Assembly (NCBI GenBank): GCA_947176895.1
Contig: CAMWSK010000012.1
Location: 1-64,000 of the forward strand
Direction: 5' to 3'
DNA length: 64,000 nucleotides
DNA from: an uncultured Prevotellaceae bacterium
GTDB taxonomy: Bacteria; Bacteroidota; Bacteroidia; Bacteroidales; Bacteroidaceae
The translations under genes and the position numbers were made by a program. Below the pieces are notes generated by a model. It had not been told where the DNA came from. It ran no database searches and saw only the letters and a program-made list of their open reading frames with translations. Positions 3,315 through 14,728 of the stretch are shown one piece after another; positions within the stretch are counted from its first letter, which is position 1; every line of letters starts with the position of its first letter.

Positions 3315-3395
3315 AACGCCGCGATGTTTTTCAAAAACGCTGCGGTGAATGACATGAAACGCCGCGGCGAATGGAATCGTTCACTGCGGCGTTTT
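3315..3395. repeat. GC-rich palindromic repeat cluster, probably also a bidirectional terminator
   Basis: Units AACGCCGCG, AACGCTGCG and AACGCCGCG begin at 3315, 3336 and 3358 (steps of 21 and 22 bp), and an inverted copy (ACTGCGGCGTTT) starts at 3383. The last two pair as a hairpin, left arm 3357-3371 and right arm 3380-3395, with a T-run on the rightward side. The hairpin lies between the convergent GNAT and Lrp genes and overlaps the lrp stop codon. The core CGCCGCGGCG is itself a perfect palindrome and recurs at the right end of the window (63965-64000). Confidence 0.7.
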
Positions 3396-3857
3396 CATTG
3401 GGAAAAGTCCGGGTTGCTTGTCCACCATCATGCGGAGGGACACGATGACTTTGGTTTGCGTCAATCCCAGGGGCCGGAGCTTGGCGTGGATAAGCTCAAA
3501 CAGATGGCTGTTGTCGTGGGCATAAAGCTTCACTAACAGGTCGTATTCTTCGCCGGTGCAGTGAACTTCCGCCACCTCGGGTACATCCCTGAGAGTTTCC
3601 ACTATTTTTCTGAGGTCGGCGTTTTCGTTTATTCTCAGTCCCACAAAGGCACATGTGTCATAGCCTATGCGGGCGGGGTCTATCTTGTATTCTGTTCCTT
3701 GTATGATGCCCAGGGACGTGAGCCGCTGCACCCGTTGGTGTATGGCGGTTCCGGACACACCACAAGCACGGGCAATCTCCAGAAAAGGGGTTCGTGCGTT
3801 GCGTATCAGCATGCTGAGGATCTGCTCATCCATACTGTCGAGTTGGTGGTTCTCCAT
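3381..3857 (-). CDS. Lrp/AsnC-family transcriptional regulator
   Basis: The 158-residue protein has an N-terminal winged-helix HTH (about residues 8-60; LDSMDEQIL ... GTAIHQRVQRL) and a C-terminal RAM effector domain (about 70-150). An upstream GTG in the same frame would overlap dapL; I chose the ATG at 3857 because it gives the usual family start and lies 22 nt after a good -7 element. It is the last gene of the leftward dapL2-glnN-asnB-dapF-dapL series. A role in sensing an amino acid and controlling this nitrogen/lysine block is a reasonable inference. Family confident, targets inferred. Confidence 0.9.
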   Translation of the reverse strand: MENHQLDSMDEQILSMLIRNARTPFLEIARACGVSGTAIHQRVQRLTSLGIIQGTEYKIDPARIGYDTCAFVGLRINENADLRKIVETLRDVPEVAEVHCTGEEYDLLVKLYAHDNSHLFELIHAKLRPLGLTQTKVIVSLRMMVDKQPGLFPMKTPQ

Positions 3858-3879
3858 GCGCTTTTTTATTAAATCTGTG

Positions 3880-3887
3880 CAAAGATA
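3880..3887 (-). promoter_or_regulatory. -7 element TATCTTTG for the Lrp-type regulator
   Basis: TATCTTTG on the minus strand, 22 nt before the chosen ATG at 3857. It implies the regulator can be transcribed separately from dapL. Confidence 0.5.
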
Positions 3888-3931: not shown

Positions 3932-5158
3932 TCAGCCGACAGAGCACATCCGCTCCATCGCTTCACGGCAATCTTCTTTCCTGCCAAAGGCCGTGAGGCG
4001 CACGTAGCCTTCGCCGCTCGGGCCAAAACCCACTCCGGGGGTGGTGACGATGTTGGCGGTGGTGAGCAGTTTGTCGAAGAACTGCCAGGAACTGAGCCCT
4101 TGGGGAGTCTTGAGCCAGATGTAAGGGGCGTTCTCGCCTCCGTGTGCCTCGATGCCAAGTTTGGCAAAGCCCTCTCGCATGAGGCGTGCGTTGTCCATGT
4201 AATAGCTGATGGTCTGTTTCACCTGTGCCTTGCCTTCGGGGGTGTAGATGGCTTCGGCACCGCGCTGGGTGATGTAGCTTGTGCCATTGAATTTGGTGCA
4301 CTGGCGGCGGTTCCAAAGCCGGTTGAGGGATATGCGTTCGCCGCTCTTCGTGGCCGCTGTCAGTTCCTCCGGCACGATGGTATATCCGCATCTTACTCCG
4401 GTGAAGCCGGCCGTTTTGGAGAAGCTGCGGAACTCTATGGCACATTTCTTGGCTCCGGGAATCTCGTAGATGGAATGCGGGATGGCGGGGTCTTGGATAT
4501 AGGCTTCGTATGCGGCGTCGAAGAGGATGATGGAGTCGTTGGCCAAGGCATAGTCCACCCATTGCTTCAGTTCCTCTTTGCTGAGCACCACTCCCATGGG
4601 GTTGTTGGGATAGCAGAGGTACAGGAGGTCGATGTGGCGGTTGGGAATCTGCGGTTTGAAAGCGTTCTCGGCGGTGCACGGCATGTAGATGACATTGCTC
4701 CATCCGTCTGCGGTGGGCGTTCCGGCACGTCCGCACATGACGTTGCTGTCGATGTAAACGGGATATACGGGGTCTGTGACGCCGATGCTGTTCTCCGTGC
4801 TCAGGATGTCACCGATGTTGCCGCAGTCGCTCTTGGCACCGTCGCTGACGAACACCTCTGCGGGGGAAAGCTTTACGCCCCGGGGAAGATAATCGTTGCG
4901 TATGACGGCCTCGATGAGGAAGTCGTAGCCGTGCTCGGGGCCATAGCCCCGGAAGGTGCGGGTGTCGGCCATCTCGCGGACGGCCCGGGTCATGGCCTCG
5001 ATGGAGGCTTCCGGCAAGGGCCGGGTGACATCCCCGATGCCCAGGCTGATGACTTTCCGGTGCGGATTGTCGGCCTTGAAGGCGTTCACCCTCTTGGCAA
5101 TTTCAGAGAAGAGATAGTTGTTGGAGAGTAACAGGAAATGTTCGTTGATGAGAGACAT
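3932..5158 (-). CDS. dapL: LL-diaminopimelate aminotransferase
   Basis: The 408-residue fold-type I PLP enzyme converts tetrahydrodipicolinate and glutamate to LL-diaminopimelate, bypassing DapC/D/E in lysine and peptidoglycan synthesis. Visible hallmarks are the substrate loop [10 protein letters not shown] (40-49), SDGAKS (105-110), PNNP (184-187), the pyridine-binding D214 with Y217, and the Schiff-base lysine K248 in SFSKTAGF. It follows dapF by 34 bp in a leftward unit with asnB. A paralogue without the lysine lies at 10226-11455. This copy looks fully functional. Confidence 0.95.
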
Positions 5159-5192: not shown

Positions 5193-6035
5193 TTACAATG
5201 TTATGGTGCCCTCGAAGACGCAGGTGGCCGTGCCGGTCATGTAGACATGGGAATCGGCCTCGTTCCAAAGCACGTCAAGGTCGCCGCCGTCCATGCGTAT
5301 GGTGAGGAGACGTCCGGTGTGGCGTGTGGCGATGGCGGCCACGGCTGTGGCGCAGGCTCCGGTTCCGCAGGCGCGGGTGATGCCCGAGCCCCGTTCCCAG
5401 ACCCTCATGCGCACGGAGCCGTCGGGCAGGAAGGAGGCGAACTCCACATTCGTGCGCCGGGGGAAGAAGGGGTGGTGCTCCAATTGGGAACCCACCCGGT
5501 CGACGGGTACCTGTTCGGCATCGGGGGTGAAGATGACCAAGTGCGGGTTGCCCATGCAGACGTAAGTGCCCGGGAACTTGTGTCCGTCAACGGTAAACTC
5601 GTGTTCCGTCAGGGTGTTGCCCGGGGCAAGCACCTGTTCGGCGTTGCGGAACGAGGGGACACCCATGTCCACGGTGACGGTGTTCACCTTGCCGTCCGTC
5701 ACCTCGAGGGAGAGGCGCTTGATGCCGGAGAGGGTCTCCAGCGAGAGGTCGGTTTTGCTTGTGAGCCCTTTTTCATAGACATACTTGCCGATACACCGGC
5801 TGGCATTGCCGCACATCATGGCTTCCGACCCGTCGGCATTGAAGATGCGCATGGAGAAGTCCGCCACGCTGCTGCCGCCAATGAGCACCAGGCCGTCGCC
5901 GCCTATGCCGGTGTGCCTGTCGCTCCACCGGATGGAGGTTTCGGAGGGATGGGGTATGGGGTGGAGCATGGTGTTGACATAGATATAGTCGTTGCCCAGC
6001 CCGTGCATCTTTGTGAAAGGAATGGTATGTGACAT
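5193..6035 (-). CDS. dapF: Diaminopimelate epimerase
   Basis: This 280-residue enzyme (typical length) interconverts LL- and meso-diaminopimelate, the step after DapL. Both catalytic cysteines are visible: one in [10 protein letters not shown] (about residue 83) and one in ACGTGACA (about residue 222). The N-terminal [11 protein letters not shown] motif is standard. It lies 26 bp after asnB and 34 bp before dapL, so the three are very probably one operon. Confidence 0.95.
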
Positions 6036-6061: not shown

Positions 6062-7726
6062 TTATAAAGCGTCGTTGTGAACATCACGGACGGCACGTCC
6101 GCTGGGTTCGTTCTGTCCCTTCCAGGCCTTGTCCCATTCCAGGGCAATGGCTGTGGAACAGGCCACGCTGGCCTCGTGGGGCACGCTGAGGGCTGCGCTT
6201 CGGCTCGGGAAGTGCTCTTCGAAGATGGTGCGGTAGTAGTATTCCTCTTTGTTGAGCGGGGTGTTGACGGGGAAGCGTTCTGCCGCGTGAGCCATCTGCT
6301 CGTCAGTCACGGCCTGCTCCGTCACGGCCTTGAGGGTGTCTATCCAGCTATATCCCACGCCATCGCTGAACTGCTCTTTCTGACGCCAGGCCACACTCTC
6401 GGGCAGCATGTCGGCAAAGGCTTCGCGAAGGATTCTCTTCTCCATGACGCTTCCCGGACACATCTTTGCCTGCGGGTTCAGGCGCATGGCCACGTCCAGA
6501 AATTCTTTGTCAAGGAAAGGCACACGCCCCTCCACGCCCCATGCCGAAAGCGACTTGTTGGCCCGCAGGCAGTCGTAGAGGTACAGCTTGCCCAGCTTCC
6601 TCACCGTCTCGTCGTGGAAGGCCTTGCTGTCCGGGGCCTTGTGGAAATAGAGGTAGCCGCCGAAGATTTCGTCGGCCCCCTCGCCGCTCAGCACCATCTT
6701 TATGCCCATGGACTTGATGACACGGGCCAGGAGGTACATGGGCGTGGAGGCGCGGACGGTGGTGACGTCGTAGGTCTCGATATAATAGATTACATCCCTT
6801 ACGGCATCCAGTCCCTCCCGGATGGTGTAGTTGATCTCGTGGTGCACGGTGCCGATGTGTTCGGCCACTTCGCGTGCCTTGGCCAGGTCGGGAGCCCCCT
6901 TCAATCCTATGGCAAAGCTGTGCAACCGGGGCCACCAGGCCGCAGACTTGCTGTCCGTTTCCACGCGCATGGCGGCATATTTGCTGGCGATGGCCGAAAC
7001 GATGGAGGAGTCCAAGCCCCCTGACAGAAGCACGCCATAGGGCACGTCGCTCATGAGCTGCCTTTTTACGGCGGTCTCCAGGGCCTCTCTCAACTCCGAG
7101 GCCGAAGCCGCATTGTCCTTGACATGGTCATAGCCGGTCCATTCACGATGGTACCATCGCTTCATCTCGCCCGTCCGGCTCAGGTAGCAGTGCCCCGGCG
7201 GAAAGGGTTCGTAGGAGTCGCAGACCCCTTCCAGGGCTTTCAGCTCGCTTGCCACATAGATGAGGCCGTCCTTGTCTGTGCCCATATAGAGGGGGATGAT
7301 GCCGATGTGGTCGCGTGCGATGAGAAATTCGTCCCGCTCCTCGTCGTAGAGGGCAAAGGCGAAGATTCCGTTCAGGTCCTCCAGAAAGTCCGCCCCTTTC
7401 TCGTGATAGAGGGCCAGAATCACCTCGCAGTCGCTGCCGGTGCGGAAGGCGTACCGGTCCTTGTAGCGGGCACGTAGCTCCTGGTGGTTATAGATTTCTC
7501 CGTTAACGGCAAGAACCTGCTTCCCGCTTGGCGAGTACAGGGGCTGGCCTCCGCTCTGGGGGTCTACTATCGACAGGCGCTCATGGGCAAGGATGGCAGA
7601 GCCGCCCACATAGATGCCGCTCCAGTCCGGTCCGCGGTGGCGCAGGGTGTGGGACATCCGCAACGCTTTTTGCCTTAACGCCTCGCTTTGTCGCTTGATA
7701 TGAAATAATCCGACTATTCCGCACAT
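6062..7726 (-). CDS. asnB: Asparagine synthetase B, glutamine-hydrolysing
   Basis: At 554 residues it equals the length of E. coli AsnB. It makes asparagine from aspartate, ATP and the glutamine amide. The N-terminal class II glutaminase domain starts with the nucleophile Cys2 (MCGIVGLF) and contains RHRGPD and NGEIYNH. The synthetase domain carries the ATP PP-loop LLSGGLDSS (about residues 233-241). It is the first gene of asnB-dapF-dapL; a palindromic repeat array lies 85 bp upstream between it and glnN. No clear TAnnTTTG motif is visible in its leader. Confidence 0.95.
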
Positions 7727-7906: not shown

Positions 7907-10096
7907 TTATCTGACGAACAGCAGCTCGCGGTATTTGGGCAGGGGCCACATGCGGTTGTCCACAATCAGTTCCAGCTTGTCGATGTGATACCTGATTTGT
8001 TCCAGCATGGGGGCGATGGTGTCGTGATAGGCCACGGCCTTTTCCCGTTCGTCGGCGATGCGGTTGGCCACCTTGCGTGCCTCCACCATGGCCTCGACGT
8101 GTTCGGTGATGTAGAGCGTGTGCTCGGCAATCTCCTCGATGAGCCTCTTGTTCTCGGCAGAGAGCTTGTCGGCCTTCTCCAGGGTGTAGATGTCCATCAT
8201 CTTGTGCACGTTGTCGATCAGCCTGCTCTGGTATTCGGTGGCCACGGGGATGATGTGGTTCATGGCCAGGTCGCCCAGCACGCGTGCCTCGATCTGTATC
8301 TTCTTGGTGTACATTTCCCACTTCACCTCGTTACGCGCCTTGAGTTCTTTTTCCGTCATGACACCGGTGGCCTCGAACATGGCCACGCTTTCGGGGCGCA
8401 GGTAGCTGTCGAAGATGACGGGGCAGCTTGTCTCGCAATCCAGTCCGCGGCGGGCGGCCTCCTGCTTCCACTCTTCGGAATAGCCGTTGCCGTCGAAGCA
8501 GACGGGGGCACATTCCTTGATGTAGCCGCGGATGACTTTCAATATGGCCTGCATCTCGGATTCGCCGGTGGCAATGAGCGCGTCGACTTCACTCTTGAAC
8601 TTGTTCAGCTGGTCGGCCACGGCCGTGTTCAGCGCAATCATGGCGCTGGCGCAGTTGGCTGCCGAACCCACGGCACGGAACTCGAAGCGGTTGCCCGTGA
8701 AGGCGAAGGGCGAGGTGCGGTTGCGGTCGGTGTTGTCGATCATCAGTTCGGGAATCTGCGGGATGTCCAGTTTCATGCCCTGCTTGCCGGAGAGGGAGAT
8801 GTCTTCCGTGGACTCGCACTCGGCTATCTGGGCCAAAACTTGGGACAGCTGTGAGCCAAGGAAAGAGGAGATGATGGCGGGAGGAGCCTCGTTGGCGCCA
8901 AGGCGATGGGCATTGTCGGCACTCATGATAGAGGCCTTGATGAGCCCGTTGTGGTGATAGACGGCCATGAGGGTGTTGACCACGAAGGTGATGAAGCGCA
9001 GGTTCTCTGCAGTGGTCTTCCCGGGAGACATCAGCAATACGCCGGTGTCGGTGCCGAGCGACCAGTTGTTGTGCTTGCCCGAACCGTTCACCCCCTTGAA
9101 AGGCTTTTCGTGGAGCAGGACCCTGAACCCGTGGTTGCGGGCCACGTTGCGCATGAGAGACATGATGAGCATGTTGTGGTCCACGGCCAGGTTGCATTCC
9201 TCGAACACCGGAGCCAGCTCGAACTGGTTGGGTGCGACCTCGTTGTGACGGGTTTTCACGGGGATGCCAAGTTGCAAAGCCTGTATCTCCAGGTCCTTCA
9301 TGAAGGCAACCACGCGCTGGGGAATGGCACCGAAGTAGTGGTCGTCAAGTTGCTGGTTTTTGGAAGCCTCGTGCCCCATCAGGGTACGCCCCGTCATCAG
9401 CAGGTCGGGGCGTGCGCCGTATAGCTCCTCGTCCACAAGGAAATACTCCTGTTCCCATCCCAGATAGGCCGCCACCTTCTTCACTTCGGGGTCGAAATAA
9501 TGGCAGACCTTTGTGGCGGCCTTGTTCACGGCGCTGAGGGCACGCAACAGGGGAGCCTTGTAGTCCAGGGCCTCGCCGGTGTAGGCGATGAAGATGGTGG
9601 GAATGCAAAGGGTGTCGTCTACCACAAAGACCGGAGACGAGGGGTCCCATGCCGAATAGCCTCGTGCCTCGAACGTGTTGCGGATGCCTCCGTTGGGGAA
9701 GGACGAGGCGTCGGGTTCCTGCTGCACCAGCAGCTTGCCCGAGAACTCCTCGATCATGCCCCCCTTGCCGTTGGGCTCCATGAAGGAGTCGTGCTTTTCG
9801 GCCGTTCCCTCGGTGAGGGGCTGGAACCAGTGGGTGTAGTGTGTCACTCCCAGTTCCGTTGCCCATTGGCGCATGCCTTCTGCCACCTTGTCTGCCACCT
9901 TGCGGTCGAGCGGAGCACCGTTGTCTATGGCATTGACGAGGGACTTGTAGGTTGCGATGTCCAGGTAATGGAACATCTTCTCGCGACCGAAGACGTACTT
10001 GCCGAAGTATTCCTCCGGACGACACTTGGGAATCTCCACTGTGGCGGCCTTCTTCCTAAAGGCATTCTCTACCACGTTAAATCGTAGTTCTGGCAT
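7907..10096 (-). CDS. glnN: Type III glutamine synthetase (GSIII)
   Basis: The 729-residue ATP-dependent ligase makes glutamine from glutamate and ammonia. Its length is that of Bacteroides-type GSIII, not GSI or GSII. The family-specific N-terminal domain (VFGREKMFHYL ... HYTHWFQPLTEG) precedes the catalytic domain with GSGKHNNWS, NEAPPAIISSFLG and NRTSPFAFTGNRFEFRA. The long C-terminal helical region is also typical. It lies 129 bp after the degenerate dapL paralogue. No TAnnTTTG motif is visible in that gap, so readthrough from the paralogue's promoter is likely. Confidence 0.95.
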   Translation of the reverse strand: MPELRFNVVENAFRKKAATVEIPKCRPEEYFGKYVFGREKMFHYLDIATYKSLVNAIDNGAPLDRKVADKVAEGMRQWATELGVTHYTHWFQPLTEGTAEKHDSFMEPNGKGGMIEEFSGKLLVQQEPDASSFPNGGIRNTFEARGYSAWDPSSPVFVVDDTLCIPTIFIAYTGEALDYKAPLLRALSAVNKAATKVCHYFDPEVKKVAAYLGWEQEYFLVDEELYGARPDLLMTGRTLMGHEASKNQQLDDHYFGAIPQRVVAFMKDLEIQALQLGIPVKTRHNEVAPNQFELAPVFEECNLAVDHNMLIMSLMRNVARNHGFRVLLHEKPFKGVNGSGKHNNWSLGTDTGVLLMSPGKTTAENLRFITFVVNTLMAVYHHNGLIKASIMSADNAHRLGANEAPPAIISSFLGSQLSQVLAQIAECESTEDISLSGKQGMKLDIPQIPELMIDNTDRNRTSPFAFTGNRFEFRAVGSAANCASAMIALNTAVADQLNKFKSEVDALIATGESEMQAILKVIRGYIKECAPVCFDGNGYSEEWKQEAARRGLDCETSCPVIFDSYLRPESVAMFEATGVMTEKELKARNEVKWEMYTKKIQIEARVLGDLAMNHIIPVATEYQSRLIDNVHKMMDIYTLEKADKLSAENKRLIEEIAEHTLYITEHVEAMVEARKVANRIADEREKAVAYHDTIAPMLEQIRYHIDKLELIVDNRMWPLPKYRELLFVR

Positions 10097-10225: not shown

Positions 10226-11455
10226 TTATTTGAGGCAATCTTTTAATCGTGTGATGGCGTTTTCGCAATTTTCCCGGTTGGCGAGGGCTTTCAGCCTGAC
10301 AAATCCTTCGCCTCCCGGCCCAAAGACGGAACCCGGCGTACAGATGACGTTGGCGCAGTAAAGAAGCATCTCGAAGAACTCCCATGAGGATGTGTTTGGG
10401 GGAATTTTCATCCAAAGGTAGGGAACGTGTTCTCCACCATAGACCTTCACGCCCAGGTTGGCCAGGTCCCGGCGCATCAGCCTTGCGTTCTCCATATGGT
10501 ATTCGCGTGCCTGCCTAAGCTGTTCCTTTCCCGCTTCCGAATATGTGGCTGCCGCCGCACACTGGGTGACGTAGGAAACACCCCCGAACCGGATGTTCTG
10601 CCTGCGGCTCCAAAGGGCATTCATCTGCACTCTTCTTCCGTCAAGCGTTTGTATTGTAAGTTCCTTGGGGATGACGGTGTAGCCGCATCTCAAGTCCGAG
10701 AACCCTGCCGTACGTGAGAAGCAGCGCAACTCAATGGCCACCTTTTTCGCTCCTCTGATTTCGTAGATGGAATGCGGAATGTCGGGTGACTGGATGTATG
10801 CCTCGTAGGATGCGTCAAAAAGAATGAGCGTGTTGTTCTTCAGCGCGTAGTCCACCCACTTTTTCAACTGCCCCTTGCTGTATGCGGCACCGCAAGGATT
10901 GTTGGGCGAGCACAGGTACACAATATCTATAGGATATTCCGGAGGCATGGGCGTGAAACCGTTGGCCTCGTTGCAGCTCATGTAGCAGACATTGCTCCAT
11001 CTACCCCCCTCGAAGATGCCTGCCCTGCCGGAGATGACGTTGTTCTCGATGTAAATGGGATAAATAGGGTCCATCACCCCGATGGTATTGTCGCCCCGGA
11101 GCACATCACCGATGTTTCCTATTTCACTCTTTACGCCATTACTTATGAAGATTTCGTTTGGAATGAGGTGGATGCCGCGTGGATTGAAGTCGTTTTTGAT
11201 GATGACATCCCGTAGAAATTCGTATCCTTGTTCAGATTCGTTCCTGCTGAAAGTGGAATGATTGGACATGTCGGCTACGGCCCTATGCATCGCTTCCACA
11301 ACAGACGGAGGAAGGGATGTGTCCGTATCATGGATACCCATGTCGGTGAGTCTGATGTTTGGGCGCATAATCTTGAATGCGTTAATCTTCTTTACCACGT
11401 CTGAGAACAGGTTCTCTGTGGGCAAATCCAGAAAATACTCATTCAACAGTGCCAT
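10226..11455 (-). CDS. DapL paralogue lacking the PLP lysine (probable pseudoenzyme)
   Basis: The 409-residue protein aligns without gaps to the canonical DapL at 3932-5158 over at least the first 260 residues. It keeps PNNP (184-187), D214 and Y217, but the Schiff-base lysine is replaced by arginine (R248, codon CGT at 10712-10714; CFSRTAGF against SFSKTAGF). The substrate loop also changed (IHDTDTSLP against IGDVTRPLP) and D106 became Asn. The frame is intact and the rest well kept, so it is not a decaying gene. It heads the leftward unit before glnN. It is unlikely to transaminate; a binding, regulatory or partner-subunit role is inference. Confidence 0.85.
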   Translation of the reverse strand: MALLNEYFLDLPTENLFSDVVKKINAFKIMRPNIRLTDMGIHDTDTSLPPSVVEAMHRAVADMSNHSTFSRNESEQGYEFLRDVIIKNDFNPRGIHLIPNEIFISNGVKSEIGNIGDVLRGDNTIGVMDPIYPIYIENNVISGRAGIFEGGRWSNVCYMSCNEANGFTPMPPEYPIDIVYLCSPNNPCGAAYSKGQLKKWVDYALKNNTLILFDASYEAYIQSPDIPHSIYEIRGAKKVAIELRCFSRTAGFSDLRCGYTVIPKELTIQTLDGRRVQMNALWSRRQNIRFGGVSYVTQCAAAATYSEAGKEQLRQAREYHMENARLMRRDLANLGVKVYGGEHVPYLWMKIPPNTSSWEFFEMLLYCANVICTPGSVFGPGGEGFVRLKALANRENCENAITRLKDCLK

Positions 11456-11790
11456 ACATGATACGTATTTTAATCATTTTGTGTTGCAAAGGTAAGGAAA
11501 ATATTAAGATTCTTTTGAAAGTAAAAAGAGCGAAACGCAAGAAAAAAGAAAGTGCATTTTTAAATACGCAAACAAAACGCTATTTTTTATTCAGATTGAA
11601 ACCTAATAACGCCCAAATACTTTCAAATTAAAAGTGTCATGAATTTGCTTTGTTCAAATTGCGTTATCAGAAGAAACGGAATAGCATTTAAGATGTACCT
11701 TTGTTGCGTGCTTACTGACAATGCTGTTGGTGCGCACATTATAATATTATAGGTTAAACATAGAACAAAATACGCATAAGGAGACAAGCC
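11456..11790. promoter_or_regulatory. Divergent control region between the dapL paralogue and purF-like
   Basis: This 335-bp AT-rich gap carries CAAAGGTA at 11487-11494 (minus-strand -7, TACCTTTG, about 32 nt before the dapL paralogue) and TACCTTTG at 11696-11703 (plus strand, 87 nt before purF). The purF start has an AAGGAG Shine-Dalgarno-like site, unusual for this phylum. As the only divergent point of the nitrogen block, it is a natural place for a shared regulator. No gene is visible inside. Confidence 0.6.
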
Positions 11791-13665
11791 ATGGAGCAAC
11801 TGAAGCACGAATGTGGTGTGACGATAGTCAGATTGTTGAAACCGCTGGAGCACTACCGACAAAAGTATGGTACGTGGATGTGGGGACTCAACAAGCTTTA
11901 TCTCCTCATGGAGAAGCAACACAATCGGGGGCAGGAGGGAGCCGGACTTGCTTGTGTGAAGCTGAACGCCATGGTCGGCGAGGAATATATGTTTCGCGAA
12001 AGGGCTGTGGGAACGGGAGCCATCTCGGAAATTTTTGAATCGGTACACAAGCACTACGCCGGATTGACACCGGAGCAGCTTGGTGATGCGCGGCTGGCCG
12101 AACGGGAACTCCCTTTTGCTGGCGAGCTTTACATGGGGCACCTGCGGTATTCCACCACCGGCCGCAAGGGCTTGGACTATGTGCATCCTTTCCTGCGCCG
12201 CAACAATTACCGGGCCAAGAACCTGGCTTTGTGCGGAAACTTCAACCTGACCAATGTGGACGAAGTCTTTTCCAACATCACGGCCGCGGGTCAGCATCCC
12301 CGTAAGTATGCCGACACCTATATTATGTTGGAGCAAGTGGGCCACCGTTTGGATCGCGAGGTGGAACGTCTGTATGAAATCTGTAAAGGGGAAGGCCTGC
12401 AGGGTGTGGACCTCACACTTGCCATCGAACAGCGCTTGGATCTGCAGAACGTGCTGCGTACGTCGTCTCCCGAGTGGGAAGGAGGCTATGTCATCTGCGG
12501 TATTACAGGAAGCGGAGACTCCTTTGCCGTGCGCGACCCATGGGGTATCCGCACGGCATTTTGGTATATGGACGACGAAGTTATGGTGCTTGCGTCGGAG
12601 CGTCCCGTGATACAGACGGCATTGAACGTCCCCGCCGAGGAGATACACGAATTGCAGCCCGGGCAGGCCCTCATTCAAAACCGGGCCGGAGACATGCGGC
12701 TGGTGCAAATCAACGCTACGCAAAGGGTGAGTCCCTGCTCCTTTGAACGGATTTATTTCTCGCGAGGGAGTGACATGGACATCTATCGTGAGCGCAAAGC
12801 CTTGGGACGCAATCTTATCCCTTCTATCCTCCGGGCTGTGGACCATGATATAGAGAACACGGTCTTTTCGTTTATTCCCAACACGGCCGAGGTTGCTTTC
12901 TTCGGTATGCTGGAGGGTCTGGACAAACATCTCAACCAATTGAAGGTGCAAGAGATTGAAGCCCTTGGCCACACCCTCGACAGGCAGCGGCTTGAGCGCA
13001 TCCTGTCCATGCGCATCCGCAGCGAGAAGGTTGCCGTCAAGGATATTAAGTTGCGCACGTTCATTGCCGAGGGCAATAGCCGCAACGACCTTGCGGCCCA
13101 TGTCTACGACATCACCTATGGCAGTCTTCGCCCCTACGCCGACAACCTTGTCATCATAGACGACAGCATCGTTCGGGGCACCACGCTGCACCAGAGCATC
13201 ATCGGCATACTCGACCGTCTTCATCCCAAGAAGATAGTCATCGTATCCTCTTCTCCCCAGGTGCGCTATCCCGATTATTACGGTATTGACATGGCCAGCA
13301 TGCAACAACTCGTCGCTTTCCGGGCGGCCATAGCCCTGCTCAGGGAGCGTGGTATGGAAAGCGTTATTGATGCCACATACGACAAGTGCGTGGCACAGGA
13401 ACACCTGCCCAAAGAGCAGATGCGGAACTATGTGAAGGACATTTACAGCCCGTTTTCTGATGAGGAGATCTCCGCCAAGATTGTGGAGCTGCTCACCCCC
13501 GCCGGCATCCGTGCCAAGGTGGAGCTGGTCTATCAGACCCTCGACGGGCTTCATCAGGCTTGTCCCCGCCATACCGGCGACTGGTACTTCAGCGGCGACT
13601 ATCCCAATGCGGGCGGATTGAAACTATTGAACAAAGCATTTATCGATTATATAAAAAATGAATAA
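11791..13665 (+). CDS. purF: Amidophosphoribosyltransferase-like protein (long Bacteroidota type)
   Basis: At 624 residues it is longer than classical PurF (about 470-505). The N-terminal class II glutaminase domain has its probable nucleophile at Cys8 (MEQLKHECGV), so a seven-residue propeptide would have to be removed; NRGQEGAG and YSTTGRKG follow. The C-terminal phosphoribosyltransferase domain has the PRPP loop VIIDDSIVRGTT at about residue 453. The expected reaction is PRPP plus glutamine to phosphoribosylamine, the first purine step. It overlaps carA by 8 bp and heads purF-carA-pyrG-gltB. Many relatives of this long type coexist with a shorter PurF, so its exact role is less sure than the family. 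Confidence 0.85.
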   Translation: MEQLKHECGVTIVRLLKPLEHYRQKYGTWMWGLNKLYLLMEKQHNRGQEGAGLACVKLNAMVGEEYMFRERAVGTGAISEIFESVHKHYAGLTPEQLGDARLAERELPFAGELYMGHLRYSTTGRKGLDYVHPFLRRNNYRAKNLALCGNFNLTNVDEVFSNITAAGQHPRKYADTYIMLEQVGHRLDREVERLYEICKGEGLQGVDLTLAIEQRLDLQNVLRTSSPEWEGGYVICGITGSGDSFAVRDPWGIRTAFWYMDDEVMVLASERPVIQTALNVPAEEIHELQPGQALIQNRAGDMRLVQINATQRVSPCSFERIYFSRGSDMDIYRERKALGRNLIPSILRAVDHDIENTVFSFIPNTAEVAFFGMLEGLDKHLNQLKVQEIEALGHTLDRQRLERILSMRIRSEKVAVKDIKLRTFIAEGNSRNDLAAHVYDITYGSLRPYADNLVIIDDSIVRGTTLHQSIIGILDRLHPKKIVIVSSSPQVRYPDYYGIDMASMQQLVAFRAAIALLRERGMESVIDATYDKCVAQEHLPKEQMRNYVKDIYSPFSDEEISAKIVELLTPAGIRAKVELVYQTLDGLHQACPRHTGDWYFSGDYPNAGGLKLLNKAFIDYIKNE

Positions 13666-14707: not shown

Positions 14708-14728
14708 AATAAAGATACACCACAAAAA

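Follow-up and report, generated by a model that had tools for sequence, protein, structure and literature searches.

What does an LL-diaminopimelate aminotransferase (DapL) become once the lysine that forms the Schiff base with PLP has been replaced by arginine, and why would such a protein be kept? The question is raised by a stretch of 64,000 nucleotides, called the window throughout, which carries two DapL-like genes on its minus strand. One of them (10226..11455) encodes a protein of 409 amino acids, here R-DapL, that its open reading frame, BLASTP and a profile search identify as a DapL-derived paralogue with Arg248. The other, dapL itself (3932..5158; TIGR03542, 623.7 bits), has Lys248. 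To our knowledge, class I aminotransferases have few lysine-less paralogues that have been maintained, and among the matches listed in the open literature (titles and abstract openings, a scope outside which most subscription papers lie) there is no description of a lysine-less DapL.

The R-DapL reading frame starts with ATG and has no internal stops. Its Pfam domain is Aminotran_1_2 and its closest solved structure, 6oxm, is a diaminopimelate aminotransferase. The protein matches TIGR03542 at full length (profile positions 3-400 of 402) with 485.4 bits, above the curated cut-off of 364.7. BLASTP aligns it with the window's DapL over residues 1-404 with no gaps (213/404 identical, 53% identity); the earlier note had described a gap-free alignment over the first ~260 residues, and the observation stands for a longer stretch than was claimed. 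At 88% completeness, the source genome (2.42 Mb in 53 contigs) holds just two matches to TIGR03542 at E <= 1e-40, R-DapL and the window's DapL. Residue 248 is the lysine of the SFSKTAGF motif, K in the window's DapL and R in R-DapL, where the codon is CGT (10712..10714, minus strand), as the earlier note had read it. The Schiff-base lysine is K251 in VsDapL and K270 in Arabidopsis DapL, according to the available text of PMC7113581 and PMC3102117.

A single clade with a fixed arginine

Genome searches and a collection scan yielded 13 non-redundant full-length orthologues (R-forms), with 63-100% identity to the window protein. Arginine occupies position 248 in all 13, against lysine in 66/66 rows of the Lys group; residue 248 was read in retrieved loci, and matches without a retrieved locus are left out of the 13 and the 66. 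The search for orthologues with R248 in Bacteroidales, proposed earlier, thus finds them in 13 genomes, so that the change is not confined to one genome, and a sequencing error or one-genome accident is ruled out. One partial match, in G854, stops at a contig end, with residue 248 beyond the stretch.

In a tree of 79 rows, from which identical proteins and one distant aminotransferase (L106) had been dropped, the R-forms lie together on one side of a branch with a support of 100/100 even with column 248 removed. Their stem branch is long (0.73 in a quick tree), and the R-form of G268 sits on a long branch of its own. A Lys-type DapL (L127, G263:C26; no glnN in the stretch seen) has a very long branch as well (0.70) and is another fast-evolving DapL copy.

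The distribution of the R-form is patchy. It was found in 4/139 genomes of the window's genus, in 3/44 of g20, in 1/15 of g9 and in 3/39 of the genus of G834 (one of these cut short by a contig end). Among 301 genomes sampled from the family, five had it at >= 63% identity, G000 included, and an order-wide sample of 393 genomes searched at E <= 1e-170 gave no match except the window's own. The R-form of G832 comes from a contig of 3.4 kb whose bin carries the label Paludibacteraceae, and it may be mis-binned. Plasmid-borne copies were considered and rejected: 279 plasmid records match, but none reaches 60% identity, and the best, at 56.8%, carries a DapL annotation.

The active site

For the active site we used the residues given for VsDapL in the available text of PMC7113581 (I43, G44, Y74, E77, K111, Y134, N189, N294 and R390), mapped through the structure-match alignment. 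All 13 R-forms keep the counterparts of E77, K111, N189 and R390, 12 keep those of I43 and Y134, ten that of N294 and nine that of Y74, and none keeps those of G44 and K251; the window copy keeps 6/9 of the list. In our numbering, E75, K109, N186, D214, Y217, S247, R256 and R387 are kept in 13/13, which for Asp214 and Tyr217 of R-DapL agrees with what was first noticed. We take Asp214, Tyr217, Ser247 and Arg256 to be cofactor residues.

Other positions have changed across the clade. D111E, D137E, K289R, T293V and R299C are replaced in 13/13, and A108V, A216S and G377V in 12/13. Gly42 is lost in every R-form (N in 12, H in the window copy alone), as is Tyr15, which presumably acts across the subunit interface. 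Several of these replacements put a bigger residue in place of a small one. Y72 is lost in 4/13 and N291 in 3/13; the window copy is without both, and may bind a ligand more weakly. The window copy has diverged further at H42, D45, S47 (also in one other member), R71, E73, S74 and N106. The motifs IHDTDTSLP and SNGVKS, singled out in the earlier note, are indeed present, although their wording is partly peculiar to the window copy and overstates the clade-wide change: residue 106, for example, is D in 12 members and N in the window copy alone. By sequence neighbourhood, 9/14 single-residue replacements fall near active-site motifs, against 64/185 (P = 0.018), and 10/20 of a wider replacement set do so (P = 0.10), a weak hint of an enrichment that would be modest and dependent on the set chosen.

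Compared with type I DapL (TIGR03542; solved as 6oxm, 3qgu and 2z1z), the R-form therefore shows whole-length, gap-free homology above the cut-off and most of the active-site residues, but differs in the arginine that stands for the PLP lysine, in the loss of Tyr15 and Gly42 and in the further fixed changes. Two attempts at a finer view were set aside. A relocated Schiff-base lysine was rejected, the sole lysine gained by most of the clade (K206, 12/13) lying away from the pocket motifs, and an AlphaFold model built from 15 sequences had a mean pLDDT of 62.7, with pocket loops below 50.

From the chemistry of the family, loss of the lysine would mean no internal aldimine and normally no transamination cycle, and the R-form is likely to be non-catalytic. 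That cofactor and carboxylate residues have been kept makes a ligand-binding role more plausible than that of a pure scaffold. The main rival is an active lysine-free enzyme, in which PMP or PLP would be bound non-covalently, Arg248 or another residue would carry out acid-base catalysis and the substrate would have changed. We consider this a serious but rather doubtful alternative. Pocket-motif changes that are fixed, not random, with the cofactor residues kept, fit a re-tooled site. There is also precedent: the sugar 3-dehydratases ColD, E1 and SpnQ share the aminotransferase fold and the replacement of the catalytic lysine, with a histidine in its place acting as both base and acid in the available text of PMC8987622, and a K258R aspartate aminotransferase is said to stabilise a quinonoid intermediate, to judge from a title cited in PMC13397446. 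In those dehydratases, however, the residue is histidine and the substrate a nucleotide sugar, whereas all 13 R-forms have arginine; none of the genes linked to them was recognised as serving a new substrate, and the losses of Tyr15, Y72 and N291 likewise count against an enzyme. Arginine, moreover, is a poor general base.

Gene neighbourhood and promoter elements

On the minus strand of the window the gene order is R-DapL, glnN, asnB, dapF, dapL and lrp. The next gene downstream of R-DapL is glnN, for a type III glutamine synthetase (GSIII; 7907..10096; PF12437, PF18318, PF00120), followed by asparagine synthase B (asnB, 6062..7726; NF006949, 920.8 bits), diaminopimelate epimerase (dapF, 5193..6035; TIGR00652), dapL and an Lrp/AsnC-type regulator (3381..3866; profile matches, with a -7 type element at 3879-3887). 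On the plus strand the order is purF-like, carA, pyrG and gltB, beginning with the divergent neighbour of R-DapL, a PurF-like class II glutamine amidotransferase (11791..13665) identified by a profile match and by the loci of relatives. In the window pyrG follows carA directly (14708-14728). The first 25 kb of the window showed no carB; it is present in the loci of G068, G002, G326, G829, G835, G833, G834, G827 and G274, several of them with guaA, and in the window's genome it may lie elsewhere or have been lost to assembly.

The purF-like gene adjoins the R-form divergently in 12/13 genomes, and in the thirteenth (G268) the R-form lies at a contig end. Directly after the R-form comes glnN in 10/13, with ~14-22 bases between the genes in seven of those ten; its place is taken by lrp in G833, cdd in G834 and gltB in G268. 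Linkage to glnN is thus dispensable, being absent in 3/13. The Lys-type gene shows a similar arrangement: of 20 loci chosen from the search matches, nine have Lys-type dapL immediately upstream of glnN (within ~130 bases), and another six carry it on the same strand, 0.9-3.1 kb upstream. Because Lys-type dapL also occupies this place, the position of the R-form next to glnN is probably inherited. Lys-type second copies form a dapL-glnN pair, with no dapF in the stretch seen, in L119 (G283) and L129 (G382), and both of these genomes also carry a main dapF-dapL cluster.

One rival reading makes the R-form a regulator that acts on GSIII, or on another enzyme of the cluster, through direct contact and with no small ligand involved. 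The idea draws on the position upstream of glnN in ten genomes, mostly at close spacing, and on the GSIII gene found in all 13, and a subunit that tunes GSIII was among the roles offered in the earlier note. The link is weaker than was supposed there, adjacency being common to Lys-type dapL and lost in G833, G834 and G268, while the presence of GSIII in every genome leaves room for an action in trans. A contact regulator would, in addition, have no need to keep the cofactor residues, and we consider it improbable.

Clusters of the same gene kinds as the R-form locus occur in Prevotella ruminicola 23, where the available text of PMC5552732 describes nitrogen clusters with GSIII-2, gltBD, dapF and asnB. 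The numbered clusters of that paper also include two genes to which it assigns no pathway, PRU_1974 (aminotransferase) and PRU_1973 (glutamine amidotransferase). The related clusters respond to ammonium, in a direction on which the paper's text and figure legend disagree (PMC5552732, available parts).

Upstream of R-DapL, 30 bases from its ATG, lies a putative Bacteroidales-type -7 element, TACCTTTGC (11486..11494, minus strand). The consensus TAnnTTTG is, we assume, that of Bacteroidales-type promoters, and TANNTTTGC occurs 19 times in the window against 6.5 expected. Alignment of ten upstream regions shows no variation in the TA, TT, C and A of TAnnTTTGCA, and its remaining T and its G occur in at least 90% of them. 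A divergent -7 element, TACCTTTG (11696..11703, plus strand), was read from the sequence for the purF-like gene, matching CAAA..TA columns (reverse strand) that are invariant in 10/10 aligned regions. Kept elements of the -7 type thus point both ways between the two genes. Between 9950 and 11900 there are three sigma-70 style promoters against 3.0 in shuffles and one terminator against 1.8, and no riboswitch or known RNA matches positions 1-24000 at the gathering threshold.

Occurrence with and without DapL

The 15 handles of the family searches correspond to 13 distinct genomes, all of them incomplete assemblies. A Lys-type DapL accompanies the R-form in four (G000, G002, G326 and G829), and a genome profile search of these incomplete assemblies found none in the other nine. 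In five of the nine, contig ends could hide dapL: the contigs of G274 and G827 end inside dapF, and those of G135, G832 and G835 in or just after glnN. In G068, asnB, dapF and dapL are all absent between glnN and lrp, and the assembly shows neither DapL nor DapF; in G833 and G834 the R-form locus has no dapF-dapL; and in G268 the genome search finds neither protein. The R-form is therefore retained in genomes whose assemblies, incomplete as they are, show no active parent. Ddh was found in 10/13 R-form genomes and DapF in 8/13. In the four genomes with a Lys-type DapL, the glutamate-dependent DapL-DapF pair and the ammonium-dependent Ddh co-occur, with dapF-dapL inside the nitrogen cluster, and they may serve as alternative routes, the former when ammonium is low and the latter when it is high.

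This distribution bears on a heterodimer of R-form and DapL, in which the R-form would lend residues across the interface or lower DapL activity. DapL is a homodimer whose active sites are shared between subunits (available text of PMC3102117 and PMC7113581), and in serine palmitoyltransferase the SPT1 (LCB1) subunit is a maintained PLP-fold paralogue that has no cofactor lysine and is nevertheless needed, going by the available text of PMC6148460. Both forms do occur together in 4/13 genomes, and the R-forms of G326 and G829 keep Y72 and N291. SPT1, however, belongs to a different subfamily and needs the catalytic SPT2, whereas the R-form has no ever-present catalytic partner in these incomplete assemblies: the nine genomes in which no Lys-type DapL was found, the loci of G068, G833 and G834, and G268 with neither DapL nor DapF all tell against such a pairing. 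Retention of the interface residues Y72 and N291 also tracks lineage and not the presence of DapL. G000 and G002, which have DapL, lack the two residues, as does G068, where none was found; both are kept in G326 and G829 with DapL and in G268, G834 and G835, where none was found. A subunit that tunes DapL, one of the roles offered in the earlier note, thus finds no support as a general rule, and we think this pairing very unlikely.

Constraint and the lysine route

Arg248 is encoded by CGT in nine members of the clade, by CGC in three and by CGG in one, and Arg289 by four different codons; this synonymous turnover at both positions indicates that arginine has been kept through silent change. 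The IQ-TREE codon model puts omega at 0.058 in the 13 R-forms and at 0.072 in five related DapLs. Pairwise NG86 values for the window copy and its two nearest kin (dN/dS of 0.104/1.67 and 0.092/1.50) give 0.061-0.062, although dS exceeds 1 in the four NG86 pairs that returned a value and is saturated in two; the YN00 method of Biopython returned a value for just 1/6 pairs, and NG86 and the codon model were used instead. In pairwise comparisons across ten loci, conservation of the R-form equals or exceeds that of purF in 38/45 pairs and that of carA in 33/45. The dN/dS comparison suggested beforehand has thus been made; it shows purifying selection like that on DapL, speaks against relaxed selection and bears out the view that the paralogue is maintained. 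Clade-wide loss of the catalytic residue, full-length homology and purifying selection occur together here, a combination expected of a pseudoenzyme, whose lack of activity would in this case follow from K248R.

The window copy evolves faster than its relatives. Only 3/9 and 2/9 of its own pairs are at least as conserved as purF and carA, respectively; it is the longest branch of a three-member subclade (0.19 against 0.12 and 0.062); and it has changed 28/136 DapL-invariant sites, against 14-22 in the other R-forms. To judge from its substitution pattern, it too is under constraint.

Patchy distribution and the divergence of the window copy would fit a relic, a defunct dapL duplicate that has survived by chance, but with no interrupted copy among the 13, the low omega and the arginine kept through silent codon change we hold this to be highly improbable.

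Least credible is an Arg-type aminotransferase that still makes LL-DAP where no other DapL exists: G833 and G834 do hold an R-form and DapF with no match to a Lys-type DapL (E <= 1e-40), Ddh (TIGR01921) or DapD (TIGR00965), but 36/39 genomes of G834's genus have no DapL-like match at E <= 1e-60, which makes another route or a supply of DAP the likelier explanation, and most R-form genomes have Ddh. The DapF of these two genomes (G833:C51, L108; G834:C5, L107) is divergent, with 29-31% identity to the window's, and adjoins lpxB.

A candidate ligand-responsive partner or sensor

The reading we prefer, while giving it somewhat less than an even chance, is that the R-form is a neofunctionalised DapL-derived protein that no longer performs normal transamination and serves instead as a ligand-responsive partner or sensor, with PLP, PMP or an amino acid bound non-covalently. 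A single clade with a long stem, in which pocket changes were fixed and constraint followed, is the pattern of neofunctionalisation. The glutamine and glutamate neighbourhood, together with the ammonium response of related clusters, favours a non-covalent binder or sensor.

On this neofunctionalisation reading, dapL would have been duplicated once within Bacteroidales, and one copy, probably that upstream of glnN, would have lost its Schiff-base lysine through K248R. The pocket would then have been re-set before the clade spread, by G42N, A108V, D111E, A216S, K289R, T293V and G377V and by the loss of Tyr15, and the protein would since have been held by purifying selection while unable to run the normal PLP transamination cycle. 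Its fold would still be that of a dimeric aminotransferase, and its pocket, in which Asp214, Tyr217, Asn186, Ser247, Arg256, Lys109 and Arg387 are retained, may hold PLP, PMP, a PLP-amino acid or an amino acid non-covalently. It would then act within the glutamine/glutamate cluster of the purF-like gene, carAB, glnN and gltB, although conservation of a neighbouring gene is no proof that the products interact.

A bolder and more tentative proposal, possible but in our view distinctly less than probable, is that a one-time K-to-R change made a lysine-free PLP/PMP amino-acid receptor, or a slow single-turnover enzyme, that signals the state of glutamate or nitrogen to the glutamine gene cluster of the Bacteroidales, independently of DapL.

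Significance for the Bacteroidales

The finding has a practical side. Since the R-form exceeds the TIGR03542 cut-off, automated annotation would call it DapL, and such mis-annotation could credit genomes like G068 with a lysine route that they seem to lack. Thirteen sequences with a fixed arginine, some from genomes that have the active parent and others from genomes where it was not found, also make a compact natural test. The carriers are some gut and rumen Bacteroidales, with arginine in all thirteen genomes examined, and in them the R-form may have a preserved second job, probably in nitrogen metabolism. If the amino-acid sensor proves true, the R-form would be an entry point to nitrogen control in the Bacteroidales.
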